From the NCBI RefSeq assembly GCF_014274465.1, contig NZ_CP060394.1, positions 4,526,001 through 4,590,000 on the forward strand: a DNA stretch of 64,000 nt. Reading direction: 5' to 3'. The stretch comes from Alloacidobacterium dinghuense. GTDB taxonomy: Bacteria; Acidobacteriota; Terriglobia; Terriglobales; Acidobacteriaceae. Shown in pieces: positions 20,657-45,298 of the stretch. The notes beneath the pieces are model-generated. The model was given only the letters and a program-made list of their open reading frames with translations. It had not been told where the DNA came from and did not search any database. Both the position numbers and the translations under genes were made by a program. Within the stretch, counting starts at the first letter, position 1, and each line of letters starts with the position of its first letter.

Positions 20657-20676
20657 CGCTCAGCTTCTTTTAGGCT

Positions 20677-21003: not shown

Positions 21004-21052
21004 TCGTTCCTCCAAGTTAACGGTTGATAATCATAGCGCAGGCTAAGACATC

Positions 21053-23254
21053 CTAAAAGGCATAGTTGACTCCGAGAGTGTATACATTTCCTCGAAAGCT
21101 TCGCGGTAGCGTTGGGCCAATGGGTGTACCTTCGCCGTAACTGTAATAGTTGTAATCTGCTTTCCAAGTCCAGTTCGGCGCCATTTGTATGTACACTCCC
21201 GCGTAGGGCGATTGAAACTGCGACTGTAGTGAGCCTGGCACCTGACGGATATTGATCATTTCGGATGTGCCATCCACGTCGCTCATGCGATACCCCGCGT
21301 TTATATGTACTCGTTTAACCGGCGAGAAAGTGAAACCAATCGAACCAAACTGCATTGGCGCATTGTAGTAACCATTGGTCTGGTATGGCGCGCCGGCTGC
21401 AGTGCAGACTGGCGGCGCGGTGGTGGCCCCGGGAGGGGGCGGCGTAGAAGGGAAGCACTCGATTGTGGTCGAGTACACGCTGTCATAGGCATAACTCAAG
21501 TTCAGCGACCATTTCTCACTTGGAGCGATTGTTGCGCCGAACGAGAAATCGCGATTGTGTTCGAGGTGGTTCACAGTCTCTACGTTGTTGCGTGCCTCAT
21601 AGATGTTCACGGCCCCGGACACCGTAAGCCATGGGCGCGGCTGATAGGTAGCGCGCGCTCTATAGTGCTGCAGTTGACGAGGGCTGATGCGAGTGAACGC
21701 ATTGTCAGCGTACATGCCATCGAAATTGAAATTGATTCGCAACTCAGGAGTGGGCCTCAGAGCGGCGCCAAAGAGTCCCCAGCTTTCATGGATGGGGATG
21801 AAGTCTCCTGCAGAGTCGGTAATGATTCGGCTTCGATACCGATAGCCAACTGAAATGCGGGCTTTAGGCGTCACGTCCCATGCCGTGACAAATGTGTTGG
21901 CTTTCGTTTTCTGATTAAGCGCCTGATAGTCCGTCGATGTCGCCGTCGTAGCAGCTCCCGGAGGCTGCAGCAGCGATGTTCCGTTATAGCTTGTTGTTGA
22001 GAAGCTGTTGATACCTGGTATACGGAAATACCAGAAGTCATAAACATCAGAAGCTGAAAGTTTAGGTGTGATCTGCCATACAGCAGCGATATCCCCGTTG
22101 ACATTCACACGCTGTACGCGGGCATTCCCAGTCTCGACCGATTGACGCAGTGAAGGCGTATCCAAGCCGTTGAAAAATTCATTGTAGTTAACGAGAGTAC
22201 TGTTTGAACCGTTGTAGAGCAGACGCCCATTTAATGTGAAGTTATGAATCGCTGAGGTCTGGAATCGCGCCTGCTCAGTTGGGTAAAGAGTTCGCGTGGG
22301 TGCGAAACGAGTGTAGGCAAGAAACCCCTGGCATGCCGGATTCACTGTTCCATCAGGATTGAATGGGCTGGAGCAGGGAGAGCCCCATACTGAAGATAGA
22401 TTGACCCCAAGACTGACAGGCGTGCCGTTCGAGAGAGTGTAATTTAAGCCGCTAAGCCGCCAGCTCGTGTCCCCTTTGTAATGAGTAATGAACTGGTCGT
22501 AGCTGAAAGTTGTCTTTGGGTCCGGCTTCCAGTCGACTCCTCCAGTCCAATTATCAGTAGAATTGCGCCAATTTTGGGAAAGCAGCGCATCCGTCCCGAG
22601 ATGAATCGTGCTATAGGATGGCCCCTGGTTGATGTTGTGGTTGTAACCAAAGCGTACGCTCACCTTGGACAAGGGAGCCAGAGTCAGGTTGAGATCAGTC
22701 ATCTGACGCAGTGTGTTGTAGAGGTGCGGTGAGAAAAGAGCGGGAACGAATGGATTCGACTCAGGCGGAATCAGGGGATTGGCAAGCAGATCGTAATCAA
22801 AATATTGACGATAACGCCGGTAGCTTCCACGAAAGTCATATATGCGCCCCTTCGACACATTTAGATATGTGACGTTAATAGGATCGCCGCCATAGCCAAA
22901 GCTGCTGGTTGAAAGCTGATCAAAGAAGATCGCATGCGCCGGATCTACGGCGTGCATCGTAAGTGATTGGTCAAGAACGCGCGCACCGGACGCAAGATTG
23001 ACCAGAGTGGCGTAGGCGGGGTCGCTGCCAGAGTGTTCCACAATTCGACCACCGAGATCGACCGACTGGTGTACCACATAACCGTGATAAATCTTTTGGC
23101 TTGGCGTCGGTTGTTGTTGAGGCTCTTGTGGGGCTGCCGGGGCTGTTTGAGCGTCCTGGGTGCACGCGGCGCTGACAATGGCCATGCAGAAAATAATGAC
23201 AAAAGCAGCTCGTCGTAATTTCACCGGGGCCGGGATGAATGAGTAATTGCTCAT
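21053..23254 (-). CDS. Outer-membrane beta-barrel protein of the cytochrome operon (MtrB/PioB-like role)
   Basis: Protein of about 733 residues from the ATG at 23254, 13 bases after the decaheme gene's stop. It begins with a signal peptide (RRAAFVIIFCMAIVSAACTQ; the Cys may be lipidated, although the lipobox is poor) and a Pro/Gln-rich linker. Many amphipathic strands with alternating aromatic residues follow (YDFRGSYRRYRQYFDYDLL, SVRFGYNHNINQGPSYST), ending in VYTLGVNYAF, a typical barrel C-terminus. The position directly after a DmsE-type decaheme cytochrome mirrors MtrA/MtrB and PioA/PioB pairs, in which the barrel sheathes the decaheme rod across the outer membrane. I cannot confirm MtrB homology by eye, and the CXXC sometimes seen near the MtrB N-terminus is absent. 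Confidence 0.82.
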   Translation of the reverse strand: MSNYSFIPAPVKLRRAAFVIIFCMAIVSAACTQDAQTAPAAPQEPQQQPTPSQKIYHGYVVHQSVDLGGRIVEHSGSDPAYATLVNLASGARVLDQSLTMHAVDPAHAIFFDQLSTSSFGYGGDPINVTYLNVSKGRIYDFRGSYRRYRQYFDYDLLANPLIPPESNPFVPALFSPHLYNTLRQMTDLNLTLAPLSKVSVRFGYNHNINQGPSYSTIHLGTDALLSQNWRNSTDNWTGGVDWKPDPKTTFSYDQFITHYKGDTSWRLSGLNYTLSNGTPVSLGVNLSSVWGSPCSSPFNPDGTVNPACQGFLAYTRFAPTRTLYPTEQARFQTSAIHNFTLNGRLLYNGSNSTLVNYNEFFNGLDTPSLRQSVETGNARVQRVNVNGDIAAVWQITPKLSASDVYDFWYFRIPGINSFSTTSYNGTSLLQPPGAATTATSTDYQALNQKTKANTFVTAWDVTPKARISVGYRYRSRIITDSAGDFIPIHESWGLFGAALRPTPELRINFNFDGMYADNAFTRISPRQLQHYRARATYQPRPWLTVSGAVNIYEARNNVETVNHLEHNRDFSFGATIAPSEKWSLNLSYAYDSVYSTTIECFPSTPPPPGATTAPPVCTAAGAPYQTNGYYNAPMQFGSIGFTFSPVKRVHINAGYRMSDVDGTSEMINIRQVPGSLQSQFQSPYAGVYIQMAPNWTWKADYNYYSYGEGTPIGPTLPRSFRGNVYTLGVNYAF

Positions 23255-23267
23255 CGTGGGGCCGCTC

Positions 23268-24197
23268 TCACCTAAAGTACACACTGTCGGCGTTCGAGCC
23301 GTGAATCTGCACATGGCAAACCGTGCAGGCCGGATACTGTTTCGCCTGGTTATGAAACGACGGAATGCCAGGCGCGTTAAAGTTCATCGATGCTGAATGA
23401 CATTGCAGACATAGAGAATTCACATTATTGCGCGTAAGCAGACGAGGATTCGGGGATCCGTGCGGGGAGTGGCAAAACGTACAGCCATCCGTCCTGATCG
23501 GCTGATGCTCGTAGACGAACGGACCTGCCGTCTCGGTGTGACATTTTACACAGACCGCATCGCCCGCGACGCTGCTGTGTAGGCCCTTGTCCTTGAAGCT
23601 GCCATGTGGGTTGTGGCAATCGCTGCAATCTATCAACCCTTCATCCACCTTGTGATGAAATGGCTGCGAAAAAGCGGGCTTTACATCAGTGTGGCAGGTA
23701 TAGCAAAGCTTCGGCTGCGAGACCTTGAGAAGGCTGACATCGTTTTCAAATTTGTGAATGCTGTGGCAGCTCGTGCAACTTACGCCTGCATCGCCATGTG
23801 CGGAGCGCTCGAAGTTAGGATGCGCCGCGGCGTGGCATTCCAGACACTTTTCATCCGTTGCCTTCGGCGTCATTGTGCTGAACCGGAGGATCTTTTCTAT
23901 ATCGCCGCCTCCCTCCACATGCTCTCTGCCAGGCCCGTGGCAGCTTTCGCACGTCACTCCTTTGCCGCCGTGCAGCATTGCGAGCCGGGAGTGAGGATTC
24001 TCCGCGAATTTCTTGCCAATGTCTTCATGGCAAGTCTCGCAGGTTTCTGAGCCAACAAAGTCAGCCGGGTCGGGTATGTTGGCCTTCTTATGCGGGCTGG
24101 TCTGCTGGTTATCTGCTCCTGCAGCGCTCACACGCACAACTTCCCAGAAGCAGAACAGCGATACGACGAGCGCCACAGAAAAGAACATTCGTCTCAT
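23268..24197 (-). CDS. DmsE/MtrA-type decaheme cytochrome c
   Basis: Exported protein of 309 residues with signal peptide (VALVVSLFCFWEVVRVSA) and exactly ten CXXCH motifs: CETCH, CESCH, CLECH, CTSCH, CYTCH, CSDCH, CVKCH, CTFCH, CLQCH and CTVCH. Spacing and length fit the DmsE/MtrA family, whose members form a haem wire that passes electrons through an outer-membrane porin to extracellular acceptors. The ATG follows GGAGAG. It is the first gene of an operon with the barrel, the small cytochrome c, the NapC-type protein and glgX. A conserved inverted repeat (24466-24481) lies about 270 bases upstream. No extracellular MtrC/OmcA-like terminal cytochrome is visible in the window. Confidence 0.94.
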   Translation of the reverse strand: MRRMFFSVALVVSLFCFWEVVRVSAAGADNQQTSPHKKANIPDPADFVGSETCETCHEDIGKKFAENPHSRLAMLHGGKGVTCESCHGPGREHVEGGGDIEKILRFSTMTPKATDEKCLECHAAAHPNFERSAHGDAGVSCTSCHSIHKFENDVSLLKVSQPKLCYTCHTDVKPAFSQPFHHKVDEGLIDCSDCHNPHGSFKDKGLHSSVAGDAVCVKCHTETAGPFVYEHQPIRTDGCTFCHSPHGSPNPRLLTRNNVNSLCLQCHSASMNFNAPGIPSFHNQAKQYPACTVCHVQIHGSNADSVYFR

Positions 24198-25405: not shown

Positions 25406-26053
25406 CTATGGAGCAACTATGTGGTTTCTCACCGCATATCGAACAAGTTCGGCGTTACTCTTGACGCAAAGGGCCTCCATGATCCGATACTTGTGAAACG
25501 CAACGGTCCGGGTCGTCATATTTAAGATTACACTAACTTCCTTCATTACTTTGCCTTCGGCGATCAACTGCAGAACTTCCCGTTGTCGCTCTGTAAGCTT
25601 GTCTCCTTCCTCGACCATTTTCTTAGGCTGCCGACGGAGGTAGGCGACATCGTCCCTGGAAAGTGACGCTGACAGATACGACCTGCCCTGTAGAACCGCG
25701 CGAACAGCTGCCACCATCTCTGAGGCTGCGCAGGTCTTGAGCAAATAGCCCGAGGCGCCGCGGCGAAAGGCTTCTGCCGCGATCTCTGTATCAGGATTCA
25801 TGGTGAGGTAAATCACCTTGACGGCGCGCAATTCTTGTTTGACCTGACAGGCAGCATCGATTCCATTGAGAACCGGCATCGTGACATCAACCACGATCAC
25901 ATCAGGCTTTAAGATGGCTGCAGCCCGAACAAGTGCGCGACCGTCTCCCACCGTGCCGACCACTTCAAACTCCTTTTCGAGCAGCGTTTTGCAGAGGTCC
26001 GCTATCAGCGTGTGATCGTCAGCTATCAGAATGCGGGGACGGATTCCTTGCAT
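25406..26053 (-). CDS. NarL/FixJ-family response regulator
   Basis: Protein of 215 residues. The receiver domain has the acidic pair ADD near residue 11, the phospho-acceptor in VIVVDVTMPVLNG (about residue 57) and the lysine in SGYLLKTCAASE. The C-terminal LuxR-type helix-turn-helix reads LTERQREVLQLIAEGKVMKEVSVILNMTTRTVAFHKYRIME. The ATG follows AAAGGAGA. It is the last of three regulators downstream of the sensor kinase gene at 27414-30788 on the same strand. Its output domain is near-identical in type to that of the regulator at 26717-27367, so the two may share targets or heterodimerise. Confidence 0.93.
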   Translation of the reverse strand: MQGIRPRILIADDHTLIADLCKTLLEKEFEVVGTVGDGRALVRAAAILKPDVIVVDVTMPVLNGIDAACQVKQELRAVKVIYLTMNPDTEIAAEAFRRGASGYLLKTCAASEMVAAVRAVLQGRSYLSASLSRDDVAYLRRQPKKMVEEGDKLTERQREVLQLIAEGKVMKEVSVILNMTTRTVAFHKYRIMEALCVKSNAELVRYAVRNHIVAP

Positions 26054-27413: not shown

Positions 27414-30400
27414 CTAGGCGGATGCCTTAAACGGGGCCCACGCGTCAATGCTGGTTCCCTCCAGGGGTTGTGAGCGAACCTCCAGTTGACCTCCAATAAA
27501 GTGCAAGCGCTCTTCCATGCTTCGAATTCCGATGCCATCTCGCGCTGAACGCCTGGCGGGATTGAATCCTCTTCCTTGATCGGAAACTGACAAGTGCAGT
27601 TTTCCATCTACAAAGTCAAGGTGAACCCTGGCACTGCTGGCGCCGCTGTGACGTTTGACGTTTCGCAGGCCCTCCTGTGCTATGCGAAAAAGACAAAGCG
27701 AAACATCCGCCGGAATTGCCCGTGGAACATTCTCATGGGTGAACTCGACCTGTATTTCCTGTAGGTCTTCAAACTCTTCGCAAAATGCTCTCACTCCCGC
27801 GACAAGTCCAAGAGTCTCCAAAGTGGAGGAATGCAAGCGATGAGACAACGAGTGCAGATCGACGCCGAGCTCACTGACAGAATTCCAAAGTTCGTGGAGC
27901 CGCGGACCTGCCTCAGCAACAGAATCCCCAATACTCTGAGCCATGTCTTCCAGTTCATTCGCCAGCATCGCCAGTCGCTGGTTGTAGTCATCATGGATCT
28001 CACGAGCAATCCGGCGGCATTCTTCCTCCTGGGCTTCAATCAGACGACCGCTCAAGCTCGCGAGCGTTTCTTCTGCCATCTTGCGCTCGGTTATATCGAT
28101 GCATGAGCCGATATATCCCGCAAAAGACCCGTCCGGGTTGAATCTCGGTACGCCAAGGTCAAATACCCAACGGTATTCGCCGTCATTGCGACGGAGTCGA
28201 TATTGCATTTTGAAAGACTCGTGCCGGTCAAATGCATTTGTGTAAGTATCCAGGCAGGCACTCAGATCTTCGGGATGGACATCATCTGCCCACCCGTTGC
28301 CAAGCTCCGCTTCAATCGGTCGGCCGGTGAACTCAAGCCAGGGCTGATTGAAATAGGTGCACAGCTTATCGGGACCAGACATCCAAATCAGCACCGGCGC
28401 AGTATTGGCAACCAGACGGAAGCGCTCCTCGCTCTCGCGTATCGCTTGCTCCGCGCGGCGACGTTCGGTGATATCCCGGATGATAACGGTAAATAGCTTT
28501 TTGCCAGCGGTTCCTACCTGTGAAACGGATGCCTCAATAGGAAATTCCTCGCCGGTAACCCGCAAACCCCACAGTGCGCCAAGCGTGCCCATAATGCGGT
28601 TAGACGTGCCAGTCTGATCGAAATGAGCCGCGCGAAAGTGATGCGGAATGAACTGCTCCAGGGACGTCCCAATCGCTTCCTCTGCACGGCAACCGAATAT
28701 CTTCTCAGCGGCAGCATTGAAGAGCACGATGCGCTGTTCGCTGTCGACGGCAATGATCGCATCCATTGCCGAAGCAATGACACCCGCTAACATCTCTTCA
28801 CTGGTGCGCAGTTTCTCTTGGATCTGTCTGCGCTCCGTGATGTCCGCAACTACTGAAAGCATGGACGTTTCGTTATCAACCTCAATCAGTTCTGCCGAGC
28901 CCAGGCCCCATTTCGTCGTGCCATCTCTGCACCGAAACTGGAATTCATAATTCCGAATTGCGCCTTCGGACAGTAGTCGTTTTGAGATCTCCAGTCTCTT
29001 GAAGGGGTCGTCCCACACGTTAATGTCGAACGGAGTCCTTCCGATCACCTCGTCTTTGTGCCAACCGGTGAGGTGTTCGAAAGTTTCGTTGACATCGAGG
29101 TAGCGGTGATCTTTCATGCTGGTCAGCGTGAGGGCCATAGGACTCTCTCGAAACGCTGTAGAAAATTTCTCCTCAGACTTCTTCAGAGCCTCTTCAGCCA
29201 GTTTGCGCTCAGTAATGTCCACCGTCATGCCAAGCATTCGCTCGGCCTCTCCGTTCTTCGCGTAATAGAATCTTCCCCTGGCTCCGATCCAGCGTATGGT
29301 CTCGTCATTTCGAATCACGCGGAATTCCGCAAAGTACGGATTCTGGTTCTGTCTTGAGTCGTCGAGCGTGTTCCAGACGAGTTCTCGATCCTCCGGATGC
29401 ACGTGGCGGCGAAAATCGTCAATATTCCCCGAATGGGCGTATGACGGAATTCCGTAGATAGTGTGAAGGTCGCCGAACCGACGAACCCGTCCGCTCTTGA
29501 TATCCCATTCCCATCCCGAGGACTTACCAGCTTCGACCGCAAGTCGAAGCCGGTCGTGGGCAACCGCAAGTTCGCTTTCCACCCGTCGTCGTCTCGCGCG
29601 CTGCCAAAGCAGTCCCAGAATCAGCAGTGTCTCAAGGAGGATCAGAAAAATAACGCCAAGAATGTACCGCTGATAGGTTTCCCAAATGGTTGGCTGTCGA
29701 TTGAGCACCATACTGCCAGGCGGAAGGGTGCTTTCTTTGAGACCAAAGCGTTGCATGGCGCGCCAATCGAACATGTAGATATTGGGGCTCTTTACAACAG
29801 GGATGTTTGCCGGCTTCTCCCCCTTGAGCACTCTCACAGCCATCTCAGCGGCAGTTCGCCCTTCAGCTGCAAGGCTTAGAACATAGCCACCTGTCGATCC
29901 TCTACCCACATCGACGTCATCTACTACAAATACGGGAGCATTGGCTGCACCGGCAATCATTGGAACCGACTGGGTCGCATCAATGAAGCGCGTTCCCGCG
30001 GCATCCTGCGTGATTGCTGTGTGATAAACGATCGTATTGGTTGGCAAGTGCTTCAACCGCTCGATCAGCGTCGGCATGTCCAGGTCGGTAAGGTAGGTAA
30101 TGTCGAGCTTTGATTCGTAACCTTGAAAGCTCTTCTTTGCGACGGATTCGAGGTCTCGCTCATACAGTCCCACACCGCCTACCACTACCAGGTGCTTGGT
30201 GGATGGTAGTAAGCGGAGTGCGGCAATCAGCGTCTTCTCAGGCTGTGCGACTCCCCATGTGCCAGTAAAGTCAGAATCGAGCTTTAATCCACCAAGCATC
30301 TCTTCCGTACTTCCACAGAAGATGATCGGGATGCCTGGGAAAGCTTCCTCGTGGGACTCAACCATGAAGTTGAGGGGACTCGGCCCGACGGTAATGATTA

Positions 30401-30788
30401 CGTCGGGCTTGCGATCACTATACCTGCGGATAAACCACTCTCGGAAGTCGCGCTGGGAAGCTTCATCCGGAAACAAAGCCGACTCCATCTCCTCATGATA
30501 GAGTTCGATCTGGTAAGGAGCTTTCTCGAGACCGGCAACAATCGCTTGATCAATTAGCGCGACGCCAGGGGATGAAAGAGGTCCGAAGACATTCAGAATA
30601 AGGACACGCCGGACTTCCTTCGCAGCGCCCGCCGATGGCGGTTGCAGCAGGAGAAAAGCTGCGACAGCTGCAATCAGAATCAGGACGCGCGTGTCCGGAA
30701 TCGGGTATCTGCCTCGTTTGCATTTCTTGAGGGGATGCCGATCAGAGAACCAATAGTGGCATGTACGTTGCTCCATCGGAGCTGACAA
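27414..30788 (-). CDS. Hybrid-input sensor histidine kinase: substrate-binding-like sensor, four PAS domains, HisKA_3/HATPase
   Basis: Protein of 1124 residues, starting at a TTG at 30788 that follows GGAGG with 7-base spacing. An N-terminal membrane segment (about 34-50) precedes a periplasmic domain of about 290 residues related to the ABC-type substrate-binding family (VRRVLILNVFG, IITVGPSPLNFMVESH, YHTAITQDAAGTRF). A second membrane helix (about 375-396, GVIFLILLETLLILGLLW) follows, then four PAS/PAC units each ending in a DITER motif, and a NarX-type kinase core. The phospho-acceptor is His in REIHDDYNQRLA; ATP-site boxes are EGLRNVKRH, DQGRGF and GIGIRSMEERL. The enzyme is predicted to sense a periplasmic ligand plus cytoplasmic signals and to phosphorylate NarL-type regulators, three of which follow immediately. 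Confidence 0.94.
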   Translation of the reverse strand: MSAPMEQRTCHYWFSDRHPLKKCKRGRYPIPDTRVLILIAAVAAFLLLQPPSAGAAKEVRRVLILNVFGPLSSPGVALIDQAIVAGLEKAPYQIELYHEEMESALFPDEASQRDFREWFIRRYSDRKPDVIITVGPSPLNFMVESHEEAFPGIPIIFCGSTEEMLGGLKLDSDFTGTWGVAQPEKTLIAALRLLPSTKHLVVVGGVGLYERDLESVAKKSFQGYESKLDITYLTDLDMPTLIERLKHLPTNTIVYHTAITQDAAGTRFIDATQSVPMIAGAANAPVFVVDDVDVGRGSTGGYVLSLAAEGRTAAEMAVRVLKGEKPANIPVVKSPNIYMFDWRAMQRFGLKESTLPPGSMVLNRQPTIWETYQRYILGVIFLILLETLLILGLLWQRARRRRVESELAVAHDRLRLAVEAGKSSGWEWDIKSGRVRRFGDLHTIYGIPSYAHSGNIDDFRRHVHPEDRELVWNTLDDSRQNQNPYFAEFRVIRNDETIRWIGARGRFYYAKNGEAERMLGMTVDITERKLAEEALKKSEEKFSTAFRESPMALTLTSMKDHRYLDVNETFEHLTGWHKDEVIGRTPFDINVWDDPFKRLEISKRLLSEGAIRNYEFQFRCRDGTTKWGLGSAELIEVDNETSMLSVVADITERRQIQEKLRTSEEMLAGVIASAMDAIIAVDSEQRIVLFNAAAEKIFGCRAEEAIGTSLEQFIPHHFRAAHFDQTGTSNRIMGTLGALWGLRVTGEEFPIEASVSQVGTAGKKLFTVIIRDITERRRAEQAIRESEERFRLVANTAPVLIWMSGPDKLCTYFNQPWLEFTGRPIEAELGNGWADDVHPEDLSACLDTYTNAFDRHESFKMQYRLRRNDGEYRWVFDLGVPRFNPDGSFAGYIGSCIDITERKMAEETLASLSGRLIEAQEEECRRIAREIHDDYNQRLAMLANELEDMAQSIGDSVAEAGPRLHELWNSVSELGVDLHSLSHRLHSSTLETLGLVAGVRAFCEEFEDLQEIQVEFTHENVPRAIPADVSLCLFRIAQEGLRNVKRHSGASSARVHLDFVDGKLHLSVSDQGRGFNPARRSARDGIGIRSMEERLHFIGGQLEVRSQPLEGTSIDAWAPFKASA

Positions 30789-35896: not shown

Positions 35897-36979
35897 TTAG
35901 TAGCTGTAAAACAAGTTCTGAATTTCAGCGGTGGAGCGGGGTTTGAGCAGCGCCAGCGCCAGCAGGATTCTGGACTTTTGCGGATTGAGCTCGTCAGAAG
36001 CGACAAAGTTCATTTCGTCGTCGTTTACTTCGACATTCCGTCCAATGCTTCCTGTTGCGACGCGGCTGCTTCTAACGACTACCACTCCGGCCTTAACGGC
36101 TCGCTCTGCGGCATCTAACGATGCCTTGTTCATGTTTCCATTTCCAACGCCGGCGATAACGATGCCCTTGGCGCCGTTTTTTACGGAGGCGTCGATCAGG
36201 TCGGCAGGCATATCCGCATAGCCGTAAACAATATCCACCCGAGGCAACTGGTTAACATCGGTGATATCAAATTCGCTTCCCGTGGTGTGCTTCCATGGGG
36301 GCGAGTTAAAGAAGTCATTCTTGCCATAGGCGCAAACTCCAACCAGACCACGCAGGGGAGACATGAAGGTTTGAACAGCGGTTGTGCTCGTCTTCGTAAG
36401 AGAGTGTGCCGCGTGAATCCAATCATTCATGACGACGAGGACTCCTCGTCCGGCAGCTTTTGAGTCGGCTGCAACGCCGACAGCGTTGAACAGGTTCAAA
36501 GGCCCATCCGCACTGACCGCGGTCGAGGGTCGCATTGAGCCCACGAGCACGACTGGCTTATCGCTCTTTACCACCAGATTGAGGAAATAGGCGGTCTCTT
36601 CCATGGTGTCGGTGCCGTGGGTGACAACAATTCCATCGACATCTCTCTGTGCCAACAAGATATTGATTCGCTTCGCAAGTGTGAGCATGATGGCAAGCGT
36701 CATGTCTTGCGATCCGACGTTCGCAATCTGCTCGCCCCTGATGTTAGCGAGATCCCTGATTCCGGGGACGGCAGCAAGCATCGCATCGATGGTTACCGCA
36801 CCGGAAGTGTAAGACGCCTGCGTGCTCGTGGACGCAGCCCCGGCGATCGTTCCTCCGGTCGCCAGGATCACAATATTTGGAAGCGGCCTCGAAGGATTCG
36901 CTTGAGCTGAGGAGGGATGGGAACTCTCGAGGGTAACAGCAACCAGAAGCAGGAATAATGCTTTGCACTTCTGTGTCAT
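35897..36979 (-). CDS. ansB: Exported type II L-asparaginase
   Basis: Protein of 360 residues with a signal peptide (ALFLLLVAVTLESSHPSSAQA), so it acts in the periplasm. Both catalytic threonine blocks are intact: ILATGGTIAGA near residue 40 and VTHGTDTMEETAYFL near 120. VGSMRPSTAVSADGPLNL is also conserved. It hydrolyses L-asparagine (often also glutamine, weakly) to aspartate and ammonia. The start is preceded by GAGGGAG. The exported glutaminase at 42084-43235 carries out the parallel reaction in the same compartment. Confidence 0.95.
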   Translation of the reverse strand: MTQKCKALFLLLVAVTLESSHPSSAQANPSRPLPNIVILATGGTIAGAASTSTQASYTSGAVTIDAMLAAVPGIRDLANIRGEQIANVGSQDMTLAIMLTLAKRINILLAQRDVDGIVVTHGTDTMEETAYFLNLVVKSDKPVVLVGSMRPSTAVSADGPLNLFNAVGVAADSKAAGRGVLVVMNDWIHAAHSLTKTSTTAVQTFMSPLRGLVGVCAYGKNDFFNSPPWKHTTGSEFDITDVNQLPRVDIVYGYADMPADLIDASVKNGAKGIVIAGVGNGNMNKASLDAAERAVKAGVVVVRSSRVATGSIGRNVEVNDDEMNFVASDELNPQKSRILLALALLKPRSTAEIQNLFYSY

Positions 36980-37042: not shown

Positions 37043-38056
37043 CTAGTCGTCCTCATCTGGAACTGGGGTCCAGGATTTGTCTGGGTTGAACAGTTCCATT
37101 TTCTTGAATTGATCGAAAGTGCCGACCCCGAAATCCTTCTCGTAGACAACACCGTCATTGCTGACGATGAAGGTTTTCACTCCAGTCACACGGTATTCGG
37201 CCGGCGCAGCGACGAGCGCAAAGCCTCCGATCATGACGCCTTGCACCACGTAGTCCATCTGTCCCATCGGAGCAGCAGGGCCCTGTCCTTTGAGGACCTT
37301 GAAGAAATAGCCATGGTAGGGTTCTGCGCGGTTGGAGTAGCCCTGTTCGATCACGTTTGCAATCTTTTCCCCGATGGGGCCGCTCCATGTGCCATCTGCG
37401 TTTTGCCAGGCCAGTCCGTCCTGCTTGCCGGGCGTGCTGATGATTCGCTGCGCGTACTGGTTTACGTTGTAACCTTCGCGTGGCTCTAGTGCGTATGATT
37501 CCTGCGCTTCCACGTAACCATGGCAGATTTGAATAGCGTCAAGTTCATTGGCTCCGATGCGACGATATAACAGCTCCTGTTTGCCGGCAGCGCTGTCAAA
37601 GTGCCATTTATTGCCTGTCTTTACCATCGGAACCGGGAAGGGCCATTCTTCATTACCCACAATGAGGAATGCGCGGTTCCCGGTCTTCGGGTCAATGGAG
37701 ACAGTCTTCTTTTCGTGCGCCTCGGCGGCGAAGTCAGCGGCGCGCTGGCGGTCCTGCACAATTTCTCCGGTAAGTACGATATCGTCGCCGTCAGGATCGA
37801 AGATCTGAATGAGTGTAGATTCGTCCCACTGCTCCGCCGCGCTAATCAACGCGTCAGCAGCTTGTTGCGGTGAGTCGAAAGTCTTTGCACCTGCAGCAGG
37901 CGCTGCTGTCGGTGTGGCGGCAGCGGCCGGAGGAGCTTCCTTCGCCTCAGGTTGCTGAGCGGTAAGGAGAGCGGGAACGGACAAGCATGCCATCGCAATT
38001 GCGCTCACAGCCCAGGCAAGTCCGAGGAGATTCTTGTTGGCAGATATTGATTTCAT
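37043..38056 (-). CDS. Exported DUF2950 family protein
   Basis: Protein of 337 residues from the ATG at 38056 (GGAG upstream). The frame is open for 51 more codons, but that part is low-complexity and overlaps the DUF3300 gene. Signal peptide WAVSAIAMACLSVPALLTAQ, then an Ala/Pro linker and the DUF2950 domain (FDSPQQAADALISAAEQWD, KTGNRAFLIVGNEEWPFPVPMVK, YEKDFGV). DUF2950 and DUF3300 genes are regularly adjacent; here they are 22 bases apart in the order DUF3300 then DUF2950. Both products should be exported. Function unknown; a cell-envelope role is only a guess. Confidence 0.92.
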   Translation of the reverse strand: MKSISANKNLLGLAWAVSAIAMACLSVPALLTAQQPEAKEAPPAAAATPTAAPAAGAKTFDSPQQAADALISAAEQWDESTLIQIFDPDGDDIVLTGEIVQDRQRAADFAAEAHEKKTVSIDPKTGNRAFLIVGNEEWPFPVPMVKTGNKWHFDSAAGKQELLYRRIGANELDAIQICHGYVEAQESYALEPREGYNVNQYAQRIISTPGKQDGLAWQNADGTWSGPIGEKIANVIEQGYSNRAEPYHGYFFKVLKGQGPAAPMGQMDYVVQGVMIGGFALVAAPAEYRVTGVKTFIVSNDGVVYEKDFGVGTFDQFKKMELFNPDKSWTPVPDEDD

Positions 38057-38078: not shown

Positions 38079-39569
38079 CTACCTGCGCCCACCGCCGCCT
38101 CTTCGCCCACCGCCACCGCCGCGCGATCCCATACTCGATGAACCGCGGCTGCTGTTGGCGCGTGCGCTCGCTCCGTTGAATCCGCCGGAACCGCCACCGA
38201 AGGCATCACGTCCGCCGCCTCCGCCGCCGCGCGAGATATCCCTGCTTCCTACACGATCTCCTCCACCGCCAGCACGATTACTGACGCCCGCCCCTCCCGC
38301 AGCACGATTGCTAACCCCGGCGCCTCCACTGCGGTTCCCGCCGCCTAAACCGTTTGCGCGATTACTGGTCAGATTTCCGCCCTGCCTTCCAATCTGTTGT
38401 CTTGCTCCAGCCTGACGGTTGGCGAGTGAGTCCCCGCGAGCCTGACCGCCAAACCGGTCAGCCGTAGCTCGATCCCGGTATGGAGCGCCGCCCCGGTGTT
38501 GCGGGTTGTGCTGCCAACTGTCGCCGCGACCACCGGACGGGAGTTGCGACGGACGGTTGCCTGCACCACCAACACCGCCCACACCACCGACGCCGCCGGC
38601 ACCGCCAATACCTCCAGCGCCGCCCACACCACCGGCACCGCCAACACCTCCAGCGCCACCAGCGCCGCCGCGAGAAGGCAATTGCGACGGGCGGTTGCCG
38701 CCGTTCACCCGATTGCCACCATTGATGTTCGTGTTGCGGTTGAAATTGCTATTGCGATTGATGGTGATGTCGTTGTTGCCTCCCCAGCCGCAGCCCCAGC
38801 CCCAGCCGCCGCCGCCCCAGAACGCACCCATCGCAACACCCACGCCAAAAGAGATCGCCATTCCCGCCGCGTAGTATCCCGGAGGCGGATAGTACACAGG
38901 AGGATATGGGTACACTGGCGGCCCATACACAACGGTGGGGTTGTAGGAGGGTACATACACGACTTGAGGATTGGCCTGTTCTACTACGATTACGCTTTTG
39001 CTTTCAATGACCTTGGTTTCTACCTTCTGCTGCTCGTTCGATTTCAGATTGCCCTTGTCCTGAGCCTTCTTACGCATCCGCTGCACGGCATCCATCACAT
39101 CGCTCTGCTGCGCCAGAAAAGCGTTGCCGAGATCGGTCGCCCACTGGATGTCGTCTGCTAGCCGCTTCACCACGTCGGGGAGTCCGGCTAAAGCCTGGAC
39201 GCTGGGATCCCACGATTGTTTCGCGACGGCGTCGGCGAGCGCTTTGTCCTTCAGCCCCGGGTTCTTCGTGAGCCACTGCTGGAGTTGAATGATCTCCAGC
39301 GGATACGTAGACGCGGCAAGGACCTGAGCCAGCATCGGGTCGGGATAAAGCGCAATGGGCGCCACGAGAGAATCCAGTTGGTCCGGCGGAATCTTCGCAG
39401 CCTGTTGCTGCGGCGCAGACGCTTGGTTCTGCGATGCAGACGTCTGGTTTTGCGACAAGGACGCATGCTCGATATCTGCCAGTGAGTCTCCCGGCACGAG
39501 CATGACTGCGCAGACTGCAACCAGAAAACGTCGAATTGCTGTGCCGAATATCCTTGGTTTCAGGTTCAT
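38079..39569 (-). CDS. Exported DUF3300 family protein with glycine-rich repeat tail
   Basis: Protein of 496 residues from the ATG at 39569, which follows GGAAGGAAG; 42 further open codons upstream look non-coding. Signal peptide RRFLVAVCAVMLVPGDSLA. The DUF3300 core covers LDSLVAPIALYPDPMLAQVLAASTYPLEIIQLQQW, DKALADAVAKQSWDPSVQAL and VVYVPSYNPTVVYGPP (to about residue 220). Beyond it come a Trp/Gly-rich segment, an Asn-rich stretch (RNSNFNRNTNINGGNR), tandem GGAGGV units (about 310-350) and a Gly/Arg/Ser-rich C-terminus. Such tails are often variable in length between strains. Co-transcribed with the DUF2950 gene. Confidence 0.92.
   Translation of the reverse strand: MNLKPRIFGTAIRRFLVAVCAVMLVPGDSLADIEHASLSQNQTSASQNQASAPQQQAAKIPPDQLDSLVAPIALYPDPMLAQVLAASTYPLEIIQLQQWLTKNPGLKDKALADAVAKQSWDPSVQALAGLPDVVKRLADDIQWATDLGNAFLAQQSDVMDAVQRMRKKAQDKGNLKSNEQQKVETKVIESKSVIVVEQANPQVVYVPSYNPTVVYGPPVYPYPPVYYPPPGYYAAGMAISFGVGVAMGAFWGGGGWGWGCGWGGNNDITINRNSNFNRNTNINGGNRVNGGNRPSQLPSRGGAGGAGGVGGAGGVGGAGGIGGAGGVGGVGGVGGAGNRPSQLPSGGRGDSWQHNPQHRGGAPYRDRATADRFGGQARGDSLANRQAGARQQIGRQGGNLTSNRANGLGGGNRSGGAGVSNRAAGGAGVSNRAGGGGDRVGSRDISRGGGGGGRDAFGGGSGGFNGASARANSSRGSSSMGSRGGGGGRRGGGGRR
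38560..38690. repeat. Short tandem repeat inside the DUF3300 gene
   Basis: Degenerate units of about 9-18 bases (GCCGCCCACACCACCGGCA type) code on the minus strand for GGAGGV/GGAGGI repeats. Both neighbouring blocks also read NRPSQLP, so an 80-residue piece of the tail may itself be a duplication. Confidence 0.7.
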
Positions 39570-40865: not shown

Positions 40866-41795
40866 TTAGCTTGTAGGCCCGGCAATCGCCTTGTTTTGTA
40901 GAACGCGCACCACCACACGGCGATTCTCGGCCTGCCCTTCAGCGGTCTTGTCACTAGCGACTTGATTACTCTCTCCCATTGCACCTGGAGCCAGCATTCT
41001 GGTGAGTGGAATTTTAGCTTGCTGAAGAAGAATGTTCGTCACATTCTGGGCTCGGTCTTCACTAAGTCTCTGATTCGTAGCGGCACTGCCGGTGGTAGAG
41101 GCATAGCCTGTTACTTCGATCATGTAACCATCGACTCCTTTGGCCTTGTCAGCCAGCGCCAGAAGCTGGGGATTGTATTGCGGATCGACCTTGGTCTTGC
41201 CGTTGCCGAACAAAACAGTTACCTCATCCATGATGTAATAGTCGTCCAGTTGACCGAAGCGTGCGATAGCGGCATCCACGGCCGCTTTGTTCGCAGCGAT
41301 TTTAGCCTGATTCGCCTCGATGGCTGCCTGATGCTCCTGCAGTGCCTGATTCTGTGCCTGCAGCTCCGCATTATGCTTTTCCAATTCAGCCGCGTTTTGT
41401 TGGGCTTGCTGCTTGACTTCATGGGTCCCGGCTTGAATGGCTTCAGCCTGTTGCAGATCATTGCCCTTGAACCTTACCTGTCGAGCTATGAGCCGAGTGT
41501 CATGGTAGTAGCCTTCCACCTTTACCGCCAGGCCTGGAATCAGGGCAGCCATGGACATTTTCTTGTTGCGAGCCTTGAACATCCCCTGCACCTGGCCCAC
41601 ATCCGTGCCATCGGTCAGCTCAACCACGAGATTTGGATTGTCCGTGGTTTGCACGATCATGTTTTCACCGCTTCGTCCTTTAATCAGGCCTTCAACTTTT
41701 ACAGTCTTTTGAGCCGCAAGTGTCAATGGCGCCAGTGTGCTGATTAGAGCCAGAGTTGCAAGGTATCTAGCGTTAAATAATGTGAACCGGTTCAT
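40866..41795 (-). CDS. OmpA-family peptidoglycan-associated outer-membrane protein
   Basis: Protein of 309 residues with signal peptide (ATLALISTLAPLTLAAQ), an N-terminal small beta domain (VKVEGLIKGRSGENMIVQT), a Gln/Glu/Ala-rich coiled coil (about 125-185) and a C-terminal OmpA/MotB domain (EVTVLFGNGKTKVDPQYNPQLLALADKAK, GYASTTGSAATNQRLSEDRAQNVTNIL, AENRRVVVRVL). It should bind peptidoglycan and brace the envelope. The ATG follows AAAGGAC and overlaps the stop of a 54-codon gene upstream (ATGA), so the two are translationally coupled. Confidence 0.93.
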   Translation of the reverse strand: MNRFTLFNARYLATLALISTLAPLTLAAQKTVKVEGLIKGRSGENMIVQTTDNPNLVVELTDGTDVGQVQGMFKARNKKMSMAALIPGLAVKVEGYYHDTRLIARQVRFKGNDLQQAEAIQAGTHEVKQQAQQNAAELEKHNAELQAQNQALQEHQAAIEANQAKIAANKAAVDAAIARFGQLDDYYIMDEVTVLFGNGKTKVDPQYNPQLLALADKAKGVDGYMIEVTGYASTTGSAATNQRLSEDRAQNVTNILLQQAKIPLTRMLAPGAMGESNQVASDKTAEGQAENRRVVVRVLQNKAIAGPTS

Positions 41796-41956
41796 GGTGT
41801 TGTCCTTTCTGGTTTTGAATTTTGGGTGATCACGTGCGTCTGCTCCCAGCCGCGTACCCTTTCCCGCGCATCATCAAAGATGCGCTCGTAATTACCCTTG
41901 CGGACTTTCTCGATTGCTTCCTTGTTCAAAGCACTGCGTGAGCTGTTGCGTTCCAT
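41792..41956 (-). CDS. 54-residue protein translationally coupled to the OmpA-like gene
   Basis: A short frame from the ATG at 41956, six bases after a near-perfect AAGGAG, to a TGA that overlaps the ATG of the OmpA-family gene by two bases. The product is highly charged and probably helical (NKEAIEKVRKGNYERIFDDARERVRGWEQ), with no signal peptide or membrane segment. Strong ribosome site, stop/start overlap and protein-like composition argue that it is real. Function unknown; it may be a small cytoplasmic protein or simply a coupling leader. Confidence 0.65.
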   Translation of the reverse strand: MERNSSRSALNKEAIEKVRKGNYERIFDDARERVRGWEQTHVITQNSKPERTTP

Positions 41957-42083
41957 TTAGCTCCTTAGAAGGCCAACTCAACGTTCGTGTGGAACACCGC
42001 CCAGTGCCTCCGAGGGCGCTCGCGACCCTCAAACGCCGACGATGTTCTTTCGTTCCGCACATTGTCCGCAAGAACGAGCGTGA

Positions 42084-43235
42084 CTACTTCAATCCAACCG
42101 AACTCGGCGAATAAAGGTTGTAGTTCAGTTTCTGAGCGACATAGTCGATCACCTCTTGCGCTTTGACGCTGTTACCCGCTTCATCCAGCGGCGGCGCAAA
42201 CACGGCGATAGCGCCCTTGCCTGGAGCAATTGCAACAATGCCGCCTCCGACACCACTCTTTGCGGGGAGACCGACATGCCAGGCCCAGCTTCCGGAAGAG
42301 TCGTACAGCCCGGCCATCGTCATCGTAGCGAGAATGTACGGGACGTCTTCGCGCTTGATGACCTGCTCTCCCGATGCAGGGTTGACTCCATTGTTCGCCA
42401 GTGTCGCGCCCATCCGGGCAAGTTGGCTTGCATTCACTCCCACGGAACATTGTTTGGTATAAATGTCGACCGATTCGAAGGGATCGGCATAAATGCGGTC
42501 ATACTTGGCCAGCAGCATTGACAGAGCTTTATTTCCAGTGTTTGTGGCAGCTTCTGATTTATAGACCTCTTCGATGAGTGTCAATTTTTCACCAGCGACT
42601 TTGTTATAGAAATTCAGAATCTTGTCCCATTTCTCATTCGCGTCTTTGCCGGATATGAGACTGGTCGTGGCGATGGCGCCCGCGTTGACGAAAGGGTTGC
42701 CAGTATGCGTTGGCATGTCGACGACGGCTGGCACAGAATTGAACGCACGGCCGGTTGGTTCCGAACCGATTCGCTCAAACGTCTTGTCTGGCCCGAGTTC
42801 TTCCATCGCGAGAGCCAGAGTGAAGACCTTCGAGATGGACTGGATTGAAAAGGAATAGTTCACGTCCCCGAGTGTGAGCACCTGATTGTCGGTAGTGACG
42901 ATAGCAATACCAAAGAGTTTCGAGTCTACTTGTGCAAGGTATGGAATATAGTCAGCATTCTTTCCCTTTGCTTCGTTCCGGAATTTGTCGTAGGCCTCCT
43001 TAACTACGGATTCCACAAGCTCCCGCCGAGGGGCAACGGGACTGCTGGCCTGTGCTGACAGTCGAAGAGGTACGAAACTTACCGCCATCAACAACGTTGA
43101 GGCAATGATCCGAATGTGCGCTCTCTTCAGAAGACCAAGGCTTCTTCTCGAAAAAGACTCACACGCAACAGGCGCCGGCTGAGCGCAACAGGAATCCCTG
43201 AGGAGGGCGTATTTGCGACTAATTGCCGACGACAT
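42084..43235 (-). CDS. glsA: Exported glutaminase A
   Basis: Protein of about 383 residues; ATG at 43235 with GAGAGG upstream. A serine beta-lactamase-like glutaminase domain starts near residue 70. The Ser-Lys dyad is in FSIQSISKVFTLALAMEE, and PTGRAFNS, MPTHTGNPFVNAGAIA and GMATT-region equivalents (SQLARMGATLANNG) are present. Unlike the cytoplasmic E. coli enzyme it has a long N-terminus with an apparent signal peptide (HIRIIASTLLMAVSFVPLRLSAQA), so glutamine is probably hydrolysed in the periplasm, giving glutamate and ammonia. It begins 20 bases after the stop of a DcaP-like porin gene, an operon that pairs solute entry with deamidation. Confidence 0.93.
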   Translation of the reverse strand: MSSAISRKYALLRDSCCAQPAPVACESFSRRSLGLLKRAHIRIIASTLLMAVSFVPLRLSAQASSPVAPRRELVESVVKEAYDKFRNEAKGKNADYIPYLAQVDSKLFGIAIVTTDNQVLTLGDVNYSFSIQSISKVFTLALAMEELGPDKTFERIGSEPTGRAFNSVPAVVDMPTHTGNPFVNAGAIATTSLISGKDANEKWDKILNFYNKVAGEKLTLIEEVYKSEAATNTGNKALSMLLAKYDRIYADPFESVDIYTKQCSVGVNASQLARMGATLANNGVNPASGEQVIKREDVPYILATMTMAGLYDSSGSWAWHVGLPAKSGVGGGIVAIAPGKGAIAVFAPPLDEAGNSVKAQEVIDYVAQKLNYNLYSPSSVGLK

Positions 43236-43255
43236 ATTCAGCACCTCTCACCCAA

Positions 43256-44674
43256 TCAATATGCGAAGCTTTTCTTCCAGTCGTACTTGAAAGAAAACTG
43301 CATCTTGTAGTCGTTAAAACTGTAACCATCGCTGAAGTTCAGGCGTCTGCCGAACTGGAATTCACCGCCCATCGTGACCGTGGGAACCGGGTGATAAAGC
43401 AGATTGGCGAGTGCATAGTGCCCTTGATGAAAATCGGCTGGGTTCTGCGCGTTCGAATTATCGATGTTGACCATGGAGTAGCCAGCCGAACTGCTGAAGC
43501 GTTCGCCCCAGTTATGATCGAGGAACGAAACCACCCCGAGGACTGGCAGAGGCACACCTTTGACGGGTGTGACGGGATTCCCGAAATTGTTCTTGATGCC
43601 GATATCGACAGGCGCATCATTCATGTAGTTCTCTACGCCCTCACCGTAGACAACAGCGAGCCTGGCTATATCCCGACTGCTCAACTTAAGATTCGAGGTG
43701 ACATTTACACCCCACCCGTAAGCGGTACCACTGAGGTTGTACTTAGGGTCGTTGTAGTCGACCCATCCGATTTTCCTGAAAATCCCTGCCGCCTGGACGT
43801 AGCCCCAATTCCTCGTCAACCGCACGTGCCCAGAAACATCGGGCAAATTAAAGCGTGGCTTGACGTTCTGTAACTCAATGCGGTCGGAATAGACACCCTG
43901 GTCTGCACTGGCGCCGGGTCGCTCTAGCGCTGCTATGACTTCGGTATGGCTACTGCGTATTGGCATCCAGCGGACTTGTACGTTGCGGAAGAAAACCATC
44001 CCGTTCGGTCCCCAATACTCAAGCAAGTTCGGGAACACATCGATGTCCATGAACGGGCTCCAGGTTTGGCCGGCGCCGAATTGCCCTAACTCCCCGTAAG
44101 CATGTCGAAGTCGAAAAGTTGTCTGACCCGCGTCAACTCCGGTCCCGAACAATTCGAACTCAAACTGGGTCTTAAGATCACCCCAGTCAGTCGGGGTCGA
44201 AGTCCTAACTCCAAATCGTGTTTGACGCACGCCGAAGTAGGTATTTCCATTGCCTCCAAACTCATTTGCAAACGCCGGCAATTTGGTGGGACGCTCGACA
44301 TCAAACCATTGCGGGTCAATCTGGCCGAAGTCGTACCCAGTGTCGGTCATGACGAAGCCGTACAGGTCGATCGTGCTTTCTGACTTTTCCCGTTCTGTGG
44401 ACGCCTTCTCATTCGCCATGGGAGGAGGAGCCGGCGTGCGTAGCGCGGCTACGGCGGCTGCAAGTGGCGTTGGCTGGGCCTGCTCCGCCACGTTGATCTC
44501 ATCTTTCAGCTCTTGCATCTCCTCCTCAAGCCGCTGCATTTTGTCTTTCAAGACTTGTAGATCCGGGCTTTGAGATTTCTGGATTTGAGCTTGTAAGCTC
44601 GTCGCGCACACGATGATCGTCGCGACGATACCCTGTAGAGTCTCTCTCCACCGAGTAGTGTTGTTTTGTCTCAT
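43256..44674 (-). CDS. DcaP-like outer-membrane porin
   Basis: Protein of about 472 residues from the ATG at 44674. Signal peptide (ETLQGIVATIIVCATSLQAQ) is followed by a coiled-coil stretch (LQVLKDKMQRLEEEMQELKDEI), a Pro/Ala linker and a 16-or-more-stranded barrel (STIDLYGFVMTDTGYDF, TYFGVRQTRFGVRTSTPTDWGDLKTQFEFELFG, ending FSFKYDWKKSFAY). The coiled-coil followed by IDLYGF is the mark of DcaP-type trimeric porins, which pass dicarboxylates and other small anionic solutes. It is the first gene of an operon with glsA. Two inverted-repeat motifs lie about 56 and 245 bases upstream of the start. Confidence 0.88.
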   Translation of the reverse strand: MRQNNTTRWRETLQGIVATIIVCATSLQAQIQKSQSPDLQVLKDKMQRLEEEMQELKDEINVAEQAQPTPLAAAVAALRTPAPPPMANEKASTEREKSESTIDLYGFVMTDTGYDFGQIDPQWFDVERPTKLPAFANEFGGNGNTYFGVRQTRFGVRTSTPTDWGDLKTQFEFELFGTGVDAGQTTFRLRHAYGELGQFGAGQTWSPFMDIDVFPNLLEYWGPNGMVFFRNVQVRWMPIRSSHTEVIAALERPGASADQGVYSDRIELQNVKPRFNLPDVSGHVRLTRNWGYVQAAGIFRKIGWVDYNDPKYNLSGTAYGWGVNVTSNLKLSSRDIARLAVVYGEGVENYMNDAPVDIGIKNNFGNPVTPVKGVPLPVLGVVSFLDHNWGERFSSSAGYSMVNIDNSNAQNPADFHQGHYALANLLYHPVPTVTMGGEFQFGRRLNFSDGYSFNDYKMQFSFKYDWKKSFAY

Positions 44675-44729
44675 GCCCAAAAACCTGCTACTCCGCAGGA
44701 ACGATGCCAGATAAGAGACTTCTTGCAAA

Positions 44730-44745
44730 CTGTTAGTTCTGCCAG
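44730..44745. promoter_or_regulatory. Inverted-repeat motif, proximal site of the porin/glsA operon
   Basis: CTGTTAGTTCTGCCAG (reverse complement CTGGCAGAACTAACAG). Very close to the site at 44919 (CTAGCAGAACTGACAG), sharing GCAGAACT and ACAG. About 56 bases before the porin start. Confidence 0.45.
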
Positions 44746-44918
44746 AGCTTCAGGAACAACCAAATGGAGACAGCGCGAAATCGCGATAGCTTCCGCGCAG
44801 CACAAACCGGAGTGATTTGCGCGCAGCACGCAGCGGTGTGGAAGAGCCAAACTGAAAGACGACCCGATTTACAAAGACCTTCTGCGAAAGAACGGATGCT
44901 TGCGCCTTTCGGCAAAGA

Positions 44919-44934
44919 CTAGCAGAACTGACAG
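44919..44934. promoter_or_regulatory. Inverted-repeat motif, distal site of the porin/glsA operon
   Basis: CTAGCAGAACTGACAG; the right half also forms the 13-base palindrome GAACTGACAGTTC with the following bases. About 245 bases before the porin start and 365 before pta. Confidence 0.45.
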
Positions 44935-45298
44935 TTCTCGAACGATGCGAGCGTCTGCAATAGTCGTTCTGTCGTTCTACATATAACGGAGACGCCGTTA
45001 CAATGCGACACTCCGAAGTTATGACTACGGGTTTGCATCACCGGTGCTTGATATTTCTTCTTTCGCCATCCCGAATGTAGAGCACGCGATTACCTTACAC
45101 ATTCTTCTGCAAGTGGCTTGTAGGTAGAGTCATTAAAGCAGCCGAGGTGGCATGACTCGGGGTGCTCGAGCCGGGAAAACGCGATAGAGAATTGCCAGGC
45201 TGAAGTTGGAGTGGGGTCTTCTATGGGCGCTGCGATGATCGCACAAGCCATGGGCGCGAAGCCGAAGGGCCCCCTCACAAAGGGCATAGGAGGTAGGA

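Follow-up and report, generated by a model that had tools for sequence, protein, structure and literature searches.

A two-gene operon in the acidobacterium Alloacidobacterium dinghuense, encoding a DcaP-like outer-membrane porin and a glutaminase A (GlsA) with an N-terminal export signal, probably serves to scavenge external glutamine through periplasmic deamidation. The operon occupies positions 42084–44674 on the reverse strand of a 64,000-nucleotide stretch of contig NZ_CP060394.1 (4,526,001 to 4,590,000), called the window here, and all positions below refer to it. The operon appears to have a cis-element of its own, and an asparaginase encoded nearby would extend the same scheme to asparagine. 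Judged from the sequence, this reading is given a probability of about 0.65. The porin would make the outer membrane more open to small amino acids that are polar or acidic. Glutamine would be hydrolyzed to glutamate and ammonia by the exported YbaS-type glutaminase, acting in the periplasm, and asparagine would be deamidated in the same way by the exported asparaginase. The cell would then take up ammonia and acidic amino acids in place of the amides.

The porin–glutaminase pair and its conserved linkage

Gene order, protein families, signal-peptide features, catalytic-type residues, conserved linkage, a regulatory motif, and gene remnants were read from the sequence. The glutaminase reading frame has its stop end at 42084 and two candidate starts, GTG 43244 and ATG 43235. 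The latter was chosen because the Shine–Dalgarno-like GAGAGG lies 8 nucleotides 5' of it, giving a protein of 383 residues at 42084..43235 on the reverse strand. It matches the Pfam Glutaminase family (PF04960, E=1.4e-108), its top NCBIfam model is PRK12356, glutaminase A (full-length match, 493 bits against a cut-off of 395), and it exceeds the cut-off of TIGR03814 (379 bits versus 255). The closest structure in the PDB is E. coli YbaS (1U60, E=6.1e-93). By the model cut-offs the protein is a member of the YbaS-type glutaminase A family, with its activity predicted. Nine residues (Y96, S133, K136, N184, E228, N235, Y259, Y311, and V329) all fall in invariant columns of a 14-sequence alignment. 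Presumably these have the catalytic role of their counterparts in human GLS, including the SxxK pair S133/K136 and the Tyr/Asn/Glu pocket.

The first gene of the operon, at 43256..44674 on the reverse strand, encodes a DcaP-family porin of 472 residues with a predicted order of signal peptide, coiled-coil-like helix, and barrel. It matches the Pfam DcaP family (PF19577) at 1e-24 and 87.8 bits (cut-off 27), and its sole PDB sequence match at E<=1 is DcaP itself (6EUS, E=4.4e-10). An AlphaFold2 model (pLDDT 55.2) has a helix at 38–65 and 16 strands, with 6EUS as the top Foldseek match (E 7.6e-15). The Foldseek results for the porin and for the F3 protein described below are taken as supportive only because both models are of low confidence. 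The porin stop lies 20 nucleotides from the glutaminase ATG, with the glutaminase downstream on the same strand, so both the coordinates and the operon-like spacing given for the pair in the preliminary description are borne out. Searches of the 6.27-Mb single-contig genome with PF04960 and PF19577 each found one place, and these two places are the adjacent genes of the window.

Signal peptides were judged by a 13-residue hydrophobicity (KD) score together with inspection and comparison with homologues. About 65 residues precede the glutaminase domain, with a hydrophobic core, IIASTLLMAVSFV (KD 2.38 over 13 residues), followed by a cleavage-like site, LSAQA-S. The predicted signal peptide covers residues 1–63 (43047..43235, reverse strand) and fits the Sec pattern of a positive n-region, a hydrophobic core, and small residues at -3 and -1. 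The only in-frame starts before the core are ATG 43235 and GTG 43244, while TTG, TTG, and ATG codons sit within it. The n-region, at about 42 residues, is unusually long because no start lies between ATG 43235 and the core. No Shine–Dalgarno-like site was seen before the core-internal ATG, where a start would destroy the signal. The N-termini of relatives differ in sequence and have a similar core, with the start usually close to it (e.g., MLIANTKSLNRLIATVLTILVLTPLSVSAQ in locus L007), and near homologues of the window protein carry a signal peptide of the ordinary type. An export signal on the glutaminase, as first proposed, is thus supported by the core, the cleavage-like site, and the homologues. 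Tat export through the sequence SRRSLG was considered as well, and the arginine pair is absent at that place in most homologues compared, which favors Sec.

Conservation was assessed over 78 distinct GlsA loci, of which 38 are of the exported type, defined by a signal-peptide N-terminus, and 40 are of the cytoplasmic type. Hydrophobicity scores range from 1.76 to 2.98 at 37 of the exported-type loci (e.g., L111 2.15, L116 2.56, L117 2.77, and L118 1.76), and the 38th, L017, was judged by eye to have a signal peptide. Cytoplasmic-type loci score <=1.42, except L090, whose 1.75 comes from a stretch upstream of the likely start. The statement in the preliminary description that glutaminase A is normally cytoplasmic therefore needs a qualifier, since the signal-peptide form recurs in these phyla.

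A DcaP-like porin sits directly upstream on the same strand at 28/38 exported-type versus 0/40 cytoplasmic-type loci. All but one of these 28 porins match at 49–66% identity or are the query itself, the remaining one being that of L069 at 29%, and all 28 of the GlsA proteins encoded next to them have a signal-peptide-like N-terminus. If F1 denotes the DcaP-like porin and F2 a second, porin-like family, a relative of one or the other occurs within 6 kb of 36/38 exported-type versus 0/40 cytoplasmic-type loci, a count that leans on the porin-like label of F2 because no family match stands behind that label. The exported-type loci without a porin relative are L116 and L055, the latter starting right at the edge of its contig. 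The linkage of porin and glutaminase is strongly conserved, and the pairing first seen in the window is therefore kept in other genomes; a lack of conserved linkage, which the preliminary description named as refuting its reading, is not what the comparison shows.

The operon is preceded by two copies of a putative regulatory motif. Copy 1, CTGGCAGAACTAACAGTT, at 44745..44728 on the reverse strand, ends 53 nucleotides 5' of the porin ATG. Copy 2, CTAGCAGAACTGACAGTT, lies inverted 173 nucleotides further upstream, at 44919–44936 on the forward strand, and agrees with copy 1 at 16 of 18 positions. The search pattern, CTRGCAGAAYTRACAGTT, was derived from these two copies, which match it by construction because it was made from them. 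A scan of the window found five matches where 0.38 are expected in all, the three beyond the pair having three mismatches. With two mismatches allowed, the whole genome holds five matches (the two exact window copies and three with two mismatches) against two for a backward-read control, and there is no third site within one mismatch anywhere in the genome. The two copies noted earlier before the operon are therefore real. With up to three mismatches, matches occur in 6 of 25 upstream regions, the other 19 being without one, while among simple base shuffles 8/1250 had a match. The six comprise the window, with two exact copies; L007 and L008, each with a single exact one; L056, with two copies at two mismatches; L014, with one at two mismatches; and L016, with one at three. 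Measured from the porin ATG, the nearest copy ends 53 nucleotides upstream in the window and 46 upstream in L007; the two copies of L056 end 54 and 78 nucleotides before it, and the exact copy in L008 lies close to a porin start placed only approximately. From its sequence distribution, the motif resembles an operator reserved for this operon among the acidobacterial loci that branch close to the window. A sigma-54 promoter was rejected as its identity, since the spacing, as read here, does not fit, and counts of sigma-70-like promoters and terminators were near chance. Between the motif copies, at 44791–44840, are two 24-nucleotide direct repeats, 79% identical and with a spacing of 26.

The nearby asparaginase (35897..36979, reverse strand) is of type II according to TIGR00520, which it matches at 454.8 bits against a cut-off of 314.3 (Pfam 3.6e-62). 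By inspection its N-terminus is a signal peptide, which supports the earlier suggestion that the window also encodes a periplasmic asparaginase.

GlsA is found patchily. Some form of it occurs in 5/61 close-relative genomes, A. dinghuense included, and in 60 genomes of a 396-genome sample of the phylum, and a scan of genome contigs gave 19 relatives, of which 11 from Acidobacteriota are 72–84% identical. A phylum sample titled Gemmatimonadetes, that of L022, gave matches in 8/298 genomes, one of them very weak, and a sample of Bacteroidota, the phylum of L021, in 54/395; the neighborhoods of the top matches in these two samples were also examined. Exported-type loci accordingly span Acidobacteriota, Gemmatimonadota, Bacteroidota, and one member of Ignavibacteria, with phylum names taken from record titles; several of these genomes, including the one from Ignavibacteria, are metagenome-assembled genomes (MAGs). 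A tblastn search of 72,556 plasmid records returned only matches below 60% identity (208 records), giving no sign of spread by plasmids.

The regions compared were 40 of 68 places in the 396-genome sample (those left out include fragments C214 and C133 of genome G309), 14 of 56 in Bacteroidota, and 6 of 9 in Gemmatimonadota. The 78 loci omit duplicate contigs (L009=L055, L015=L057, L114=L022), shorter stretches of places also covered at greater length (L001–L003, L027–L054, L104–L109), and three distant GlsA of 36–38% identity on short loci (L004–L006). L074, L077, and L079, with a poorly resolved start region, are counted as cytoplasmic type, and the 40 cytoplasmic-type controls are a sample of such loci. 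Because the loci are related, the counts are not independent, and because stretch lengths differ, a missing distant neighbor is weak evidence for the short L017, L055, and L069. A maximum-likelihood tree of 72 GlsA (without L017, L018, L074, L077, L079, and L129, which are frameshifted, cut, double, or have ill-set ends) places all 36 exported-type rows in one 41-row clade with support of 100/100, and the remaining five rows of that clade are of the cytoplasmic type. The export label needs two changes on this tree, so that one or two origins of GlsA export are possible.

Operon remnants and the wider cluster

The window operon most likely is a reduced form of an ancestral porin–glutaminase–F2–F3 operon, F3 being an exported amidohydrolase (PF04909). 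Remnants of both missing genes point to this descent, with most of F2 and F3 lost. A probable scrap of F2, its last nine codons and stop, lies in the place of F2 at 41965..41994 (reverse strand) and reads FHTNVELAF followed by the stop, with 8/10 residues identical to the F2 C-terminus of L007. Shuffles scored as high in 1 of 500 for L007, 0 for L011, 2 for L012, 1 for L013, 2 for L015, and 5 for L016; against L019 (328/500) and L021 (367/500) the scrap is not recognized. An F2 query found no match in the whole genome. What is left of F3 lies in a 54-codon open reading frame at 41792..41956 (reverse strand) that keeps about 31 C-terminal residues. The F3 protein of L007 has its sole match in the genome here (41837–41929, reverse strand; 31 residues, 58% identity, E 1.4e-5), and no shuffle of 500 scored as high against any of nine homologues. 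The frame has its own ATG and a Shine–Dalgarno-like AAGGAG, and its stop codon shares bases with the ATG that opens the following gene, of the OmpA family (40866–41795).

In relatives these genes are common neighbors. F2 lies within 6 kb of 25/38 exported-type loci (in L068 as a 46-residue match only), matches nothing in Pfam or NCBIfam, and owes the label porin-like solely to its signal peptide and the character of its sequence. F3 is found at 26/38 loci, the window remnant counted, and most homologues displayed begin with a signal-peptide-like stretch. A sequence search of the PDB found no relative of F3 at E<=0.01, and the top Foldseek matches of its AlphaFold2 model (pLDDT 59.5) are amidohydrolase-superfamily proteins of mixed function. 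In the 396-genome sample, F3 (E<=1e-30) occurs in 28 genomes and in 9 of the 15 with exported-type GlsA; 14 of the other 19 belong to a single genus without a GlsA match. F3 directly adjoins an Amt-family ammonium transporter in all three genomes of that genus examined (L131 7088–9673, L132 7782–10294, and L134 6796–9370). The L132 transporter belongs to PF00909, and those of L131 and L134 are 90–95% identical relatives. Such a transporter was not found in the fetched GlsA loci, except for a 33% match in L120. The neighbor in this other genus hints at ammonia release by F3. Locus L133 (6329–11428, genome G315) has an F2–F3–AspT unit and no GlsA match, its AspT-type match being 75% identical to that of L007, which shows pieces of the module moving on their own.

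Further partners appear at fewer loci. An aspartase is present at 9/38 exported-type loci and an AspT-type antiporter at 8/38, three of the latter being weak matches (L066 25%, L113 37%, and L117 36% identity); L010 has a Dcu transporter and L007 a partial one. Aspartase is normally cytoplasmic. Aspartase-like proteins with an apparent signal peptide are encoded in L009 (2367–3851, the same place as L055), L010 (5463–6941), L061, and L118 (11293–12756), thus in both Acidobacteriota and Bacteroidota; no such signal was seen in L007, L058, and L062, and in L021 and L024 the sequence is cut. Both the L010 and the L118 protein exceed the cut-off of PRK12273, the aspartate ammonia-lyase subfamily, and fit the aspA model far better than the fumarase one. 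With 615 and 612 bits, respectively, they do not reach the aspA equivalog cut-off of 681, so aspartase-like is the safe name. In L015 (2371–4041), the porin and an F2 gene flank a gene for L-serine dehydratase, another enzyme that releases ammonia.

These clusters raise a tentative broader reading, one with the odds somewhat against it, that the window carries a pared-down version of a so far undescribed pathway releasing ammonia in the periplasm, of which L010, L061, L118, and L007 are fuller examples. In such a pathway the DcaP-like porin and the second porin-like protein would admit the substrates. Beyond the inner membrane, glutaminase (glutamine to glutamate), asparaginase (asparagine to aspartate), the signal-peptide aspartase of L009/L055, L010, L061, and L118 (aspartate to fumarate), and F3 would all be at work, and the resulting ammonia, fumarate, and acidic amino acids would then enter through Amt, Dcu, or AspT carriers. 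At no single locus examined are all of these parts found together, and the combinations differ by locus.

Nitrogen supply and its alternatives

Secretion, periplasmic activity, the substrate of the porin, regulation through the motif, and nutrition over acid defence as the main purpose are what we infer from these features. Nitrogen supply and acid protection by ammonia had both been put forward as the purpose. The former is favored because the neighbors in relatives include asparaginase, aspartase, an AspT-type antiporter, Dcu, and the exported amidohydrolase linked elsewhere to Amt, and the latter found no specific support.

Several points weigh against the scavenging reading. The channels of the DcaP family prefer anions, and known members serve the catabolism of di- and tricarboxylic acids, according to the available part of a preprint (PMC12338516). 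Glutamine and asparagine are neutral, and the porin could therefore serve the deamidation products or other carboxylates; the family's preference suggests a fit to those products at least as good as to the amides. The module of the window is incomplete, since F2 and F3 are lost and a search of the genome found no aspartase, the best match (40%) being a class II fumarase above its NCBIfam cut-off. Asparaginase lies within 9 kb of just 9/38 exported-type loci, window included. The gene is rare in close kin, with 1/36 same-genus or same-family genomes having it (G029, 86% identity). Export of the window copy could be weak, given its long n-region without a nearer start. Linkage is also loose at a few loci, as L116 has a signal peptide on GlsA and no recognized partner, the only porin match in L063 (29%) is on the opposite strand, and the porin directly upstream in L069 is the distant one noted above.

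In an alternative reading the porin sets the theme, the operon taking up acidic amino acids and C4/C5 dicarboxylates with the glutaminase as an accessory that feeds in glutamate. The link of the DcaP family to carboxylic acids in the available text of PMC12338516, a preprint, is in keeping with this, as are the AspT and Dcu genes of some related clusters and the Ignavibacteria locus L019, which has two tandem porins upstream and a weaker match (25%) downstream. It is doubtful nonetheless, as the porin (directly upstream at 28/38), F3 (26), and F2 (25) are all commoner than any transporter, the AspT type reaching 8/38.

Under the acid-protection reading, the two exported enzymes, glutaminase and asparaginase, would do in the periplasm what the AR2_Q system does in E. 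coli, buffering the periplasm of an acid-soil bacterium with ammonia. The enzyme is closest to YbaS, which together with GadC confers glutamine-dependent acid resistance in E. coli (PMC5695133, as far as its available text goes). The enzymes recognized as its partners are known or expected producers of ammonia, and the tree places the exported forms beside the GAD-linked cytoplasmic-type L020, L026, and L119, the last on a long branch. Within the stretches fetched, however, GAD- or GadC-like genes occur at 0/38 exported-type loci, window included, versus 3/40 of the cytoplasmic type. The system is found in Gemmatimonadota, Bacteroidota, and an Ignavibacteria MAG as well, and the aspartase, AspT, and Dcu partners are typical of catabolism. 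AR2_Q also exchanges glutamine for glutamate or gamma-aminobutyrate (GABA) via GadC and so needs its enzyme inside the cell (PMC5695133, available part). Acid protection is therefore an unlikely main purpose.

Finally, a nonfunctional signal that leaves the glutaminase cytoplasmic or membrane-anchored in this strain is very improbable. The long n-region and a cluster already partly decayed speak for it. Against it, the core and cleavage-like site are intact, the enzyme is 72–85% identical to acidobacterial relatives over the matched part, and the ATG with the Shine–Dalgarno-like site is one from which the complete signal is translated.

Neighboring genes, known systems, and significance

Genes of the DUF2950 (37043–38056) and DUF3300 (38079–39566) families sit between asparaginase and glutaminase. 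The DUF3300 family is near 7/38 exported-type loci (L007, L008, L012, L056, L062, L066, and the window) and is listed at 0/40 cytoplasmic-type loci. Elsewhere the window encodes a multidomain protein (7215–10772) combining caspase (Peptidase_C14), NACHT, pentapeptide, and FGE-sulfatase domains, possibly for defense or signaling, with a small open reading frame adjoining it at 10779–11342. A multiheme cytochrome gene cluster at 19226–24197 (NapC/NirT, C7, and paired CXXCH motifs) includes a protein with a weak, below-cut-off match to an outer-membrane barrel. Near a LuxR-type response regulator (25406–26053) is a histidine kinase (27414–30788) that combines multiple PAS domains with an ABC substrate-binding-like domain.

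The periplasmic deamidation and glutamate uptake proposed for the operon would resemble the work of Pseudomonas AnsB, a member of the asparaginase family and not of GlsA. As described in the available part of PMC7962211, this periplasmic glutaminase-asparaginase frees ammonia, after which glutamate is taken up, with AatJQMP involved; unlike the system here, it is linked to an ABC transporter and not to a porin. Campylobacter jejuni offers a second likeness to the proposed scheme in deamidating glutamine and asparagine in the periplasm and taking up the products. It uses gamma-glutamyltranspeptidase (GGT) and AnsB(s), with uptake via Peb, Dcu, and DctA, so its glutamine hydrolysis does not depend on GlsA, and the available text mentions no dedicated porin (PMC4178425).

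E. coli YbaS/GlsA1, which forms AR2_Q with GadC (glsA + gadC), belongs to the same family (PRK12356, 1U60) with the same expected reaction, glutamine to glutamate and ammonia. AR2_Q works by swapping outside glutamine for inside glutamate or GABA through GadC (PMC5695133, available part). The window system differs in its signal peptide, its porin partner, and the lack of GAD or GadC near any of the 38 exported-type loci. The ansB–aspA–dcuA cluster of Actinobacillus succinogenes, with a putative exported asparaginase, an aspartase, and Dcu, resembles parts of the larger relatives; the available text of PMC10634366 describes no glutaminase or porin with it and places the aspartase in the cytoplasm, in contrast to the signal-peptide aspartase-like proteins at four loci here. 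The DcaP porins of Acinetobacter are of the same family as the window porin and, by the low-confidence model, possibly of the same fold, and no glutaminase neighbor is mentioned for them in the available part of the preprint (PMC12338516).

No description of this operon was found in searches of an open-access library, which omits most subscription papers. Periplasmic deamidation of amides is already known, while an exported GlsA arranged with its own porin was not found described in those searches. Known periplasmic glutamine deamidation is tied to GGT or asparaginase-family enzymes in the available parts of PMC4178425 and PMC7962211, and a conserved signal-peptide branch of GlsA with its own porin would add an independent route in poorly known soil phyla. 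It would also suggest which substrates to test for DcaP-like porins outside Acinetobacter. F3 and the signal-peptide aspartase-like protein are candidates for new periplasmic ammonia-releasing enzymes, and the broader pathway, if true, would mean that catabolic deamination is run in the periplasm in several phyla.

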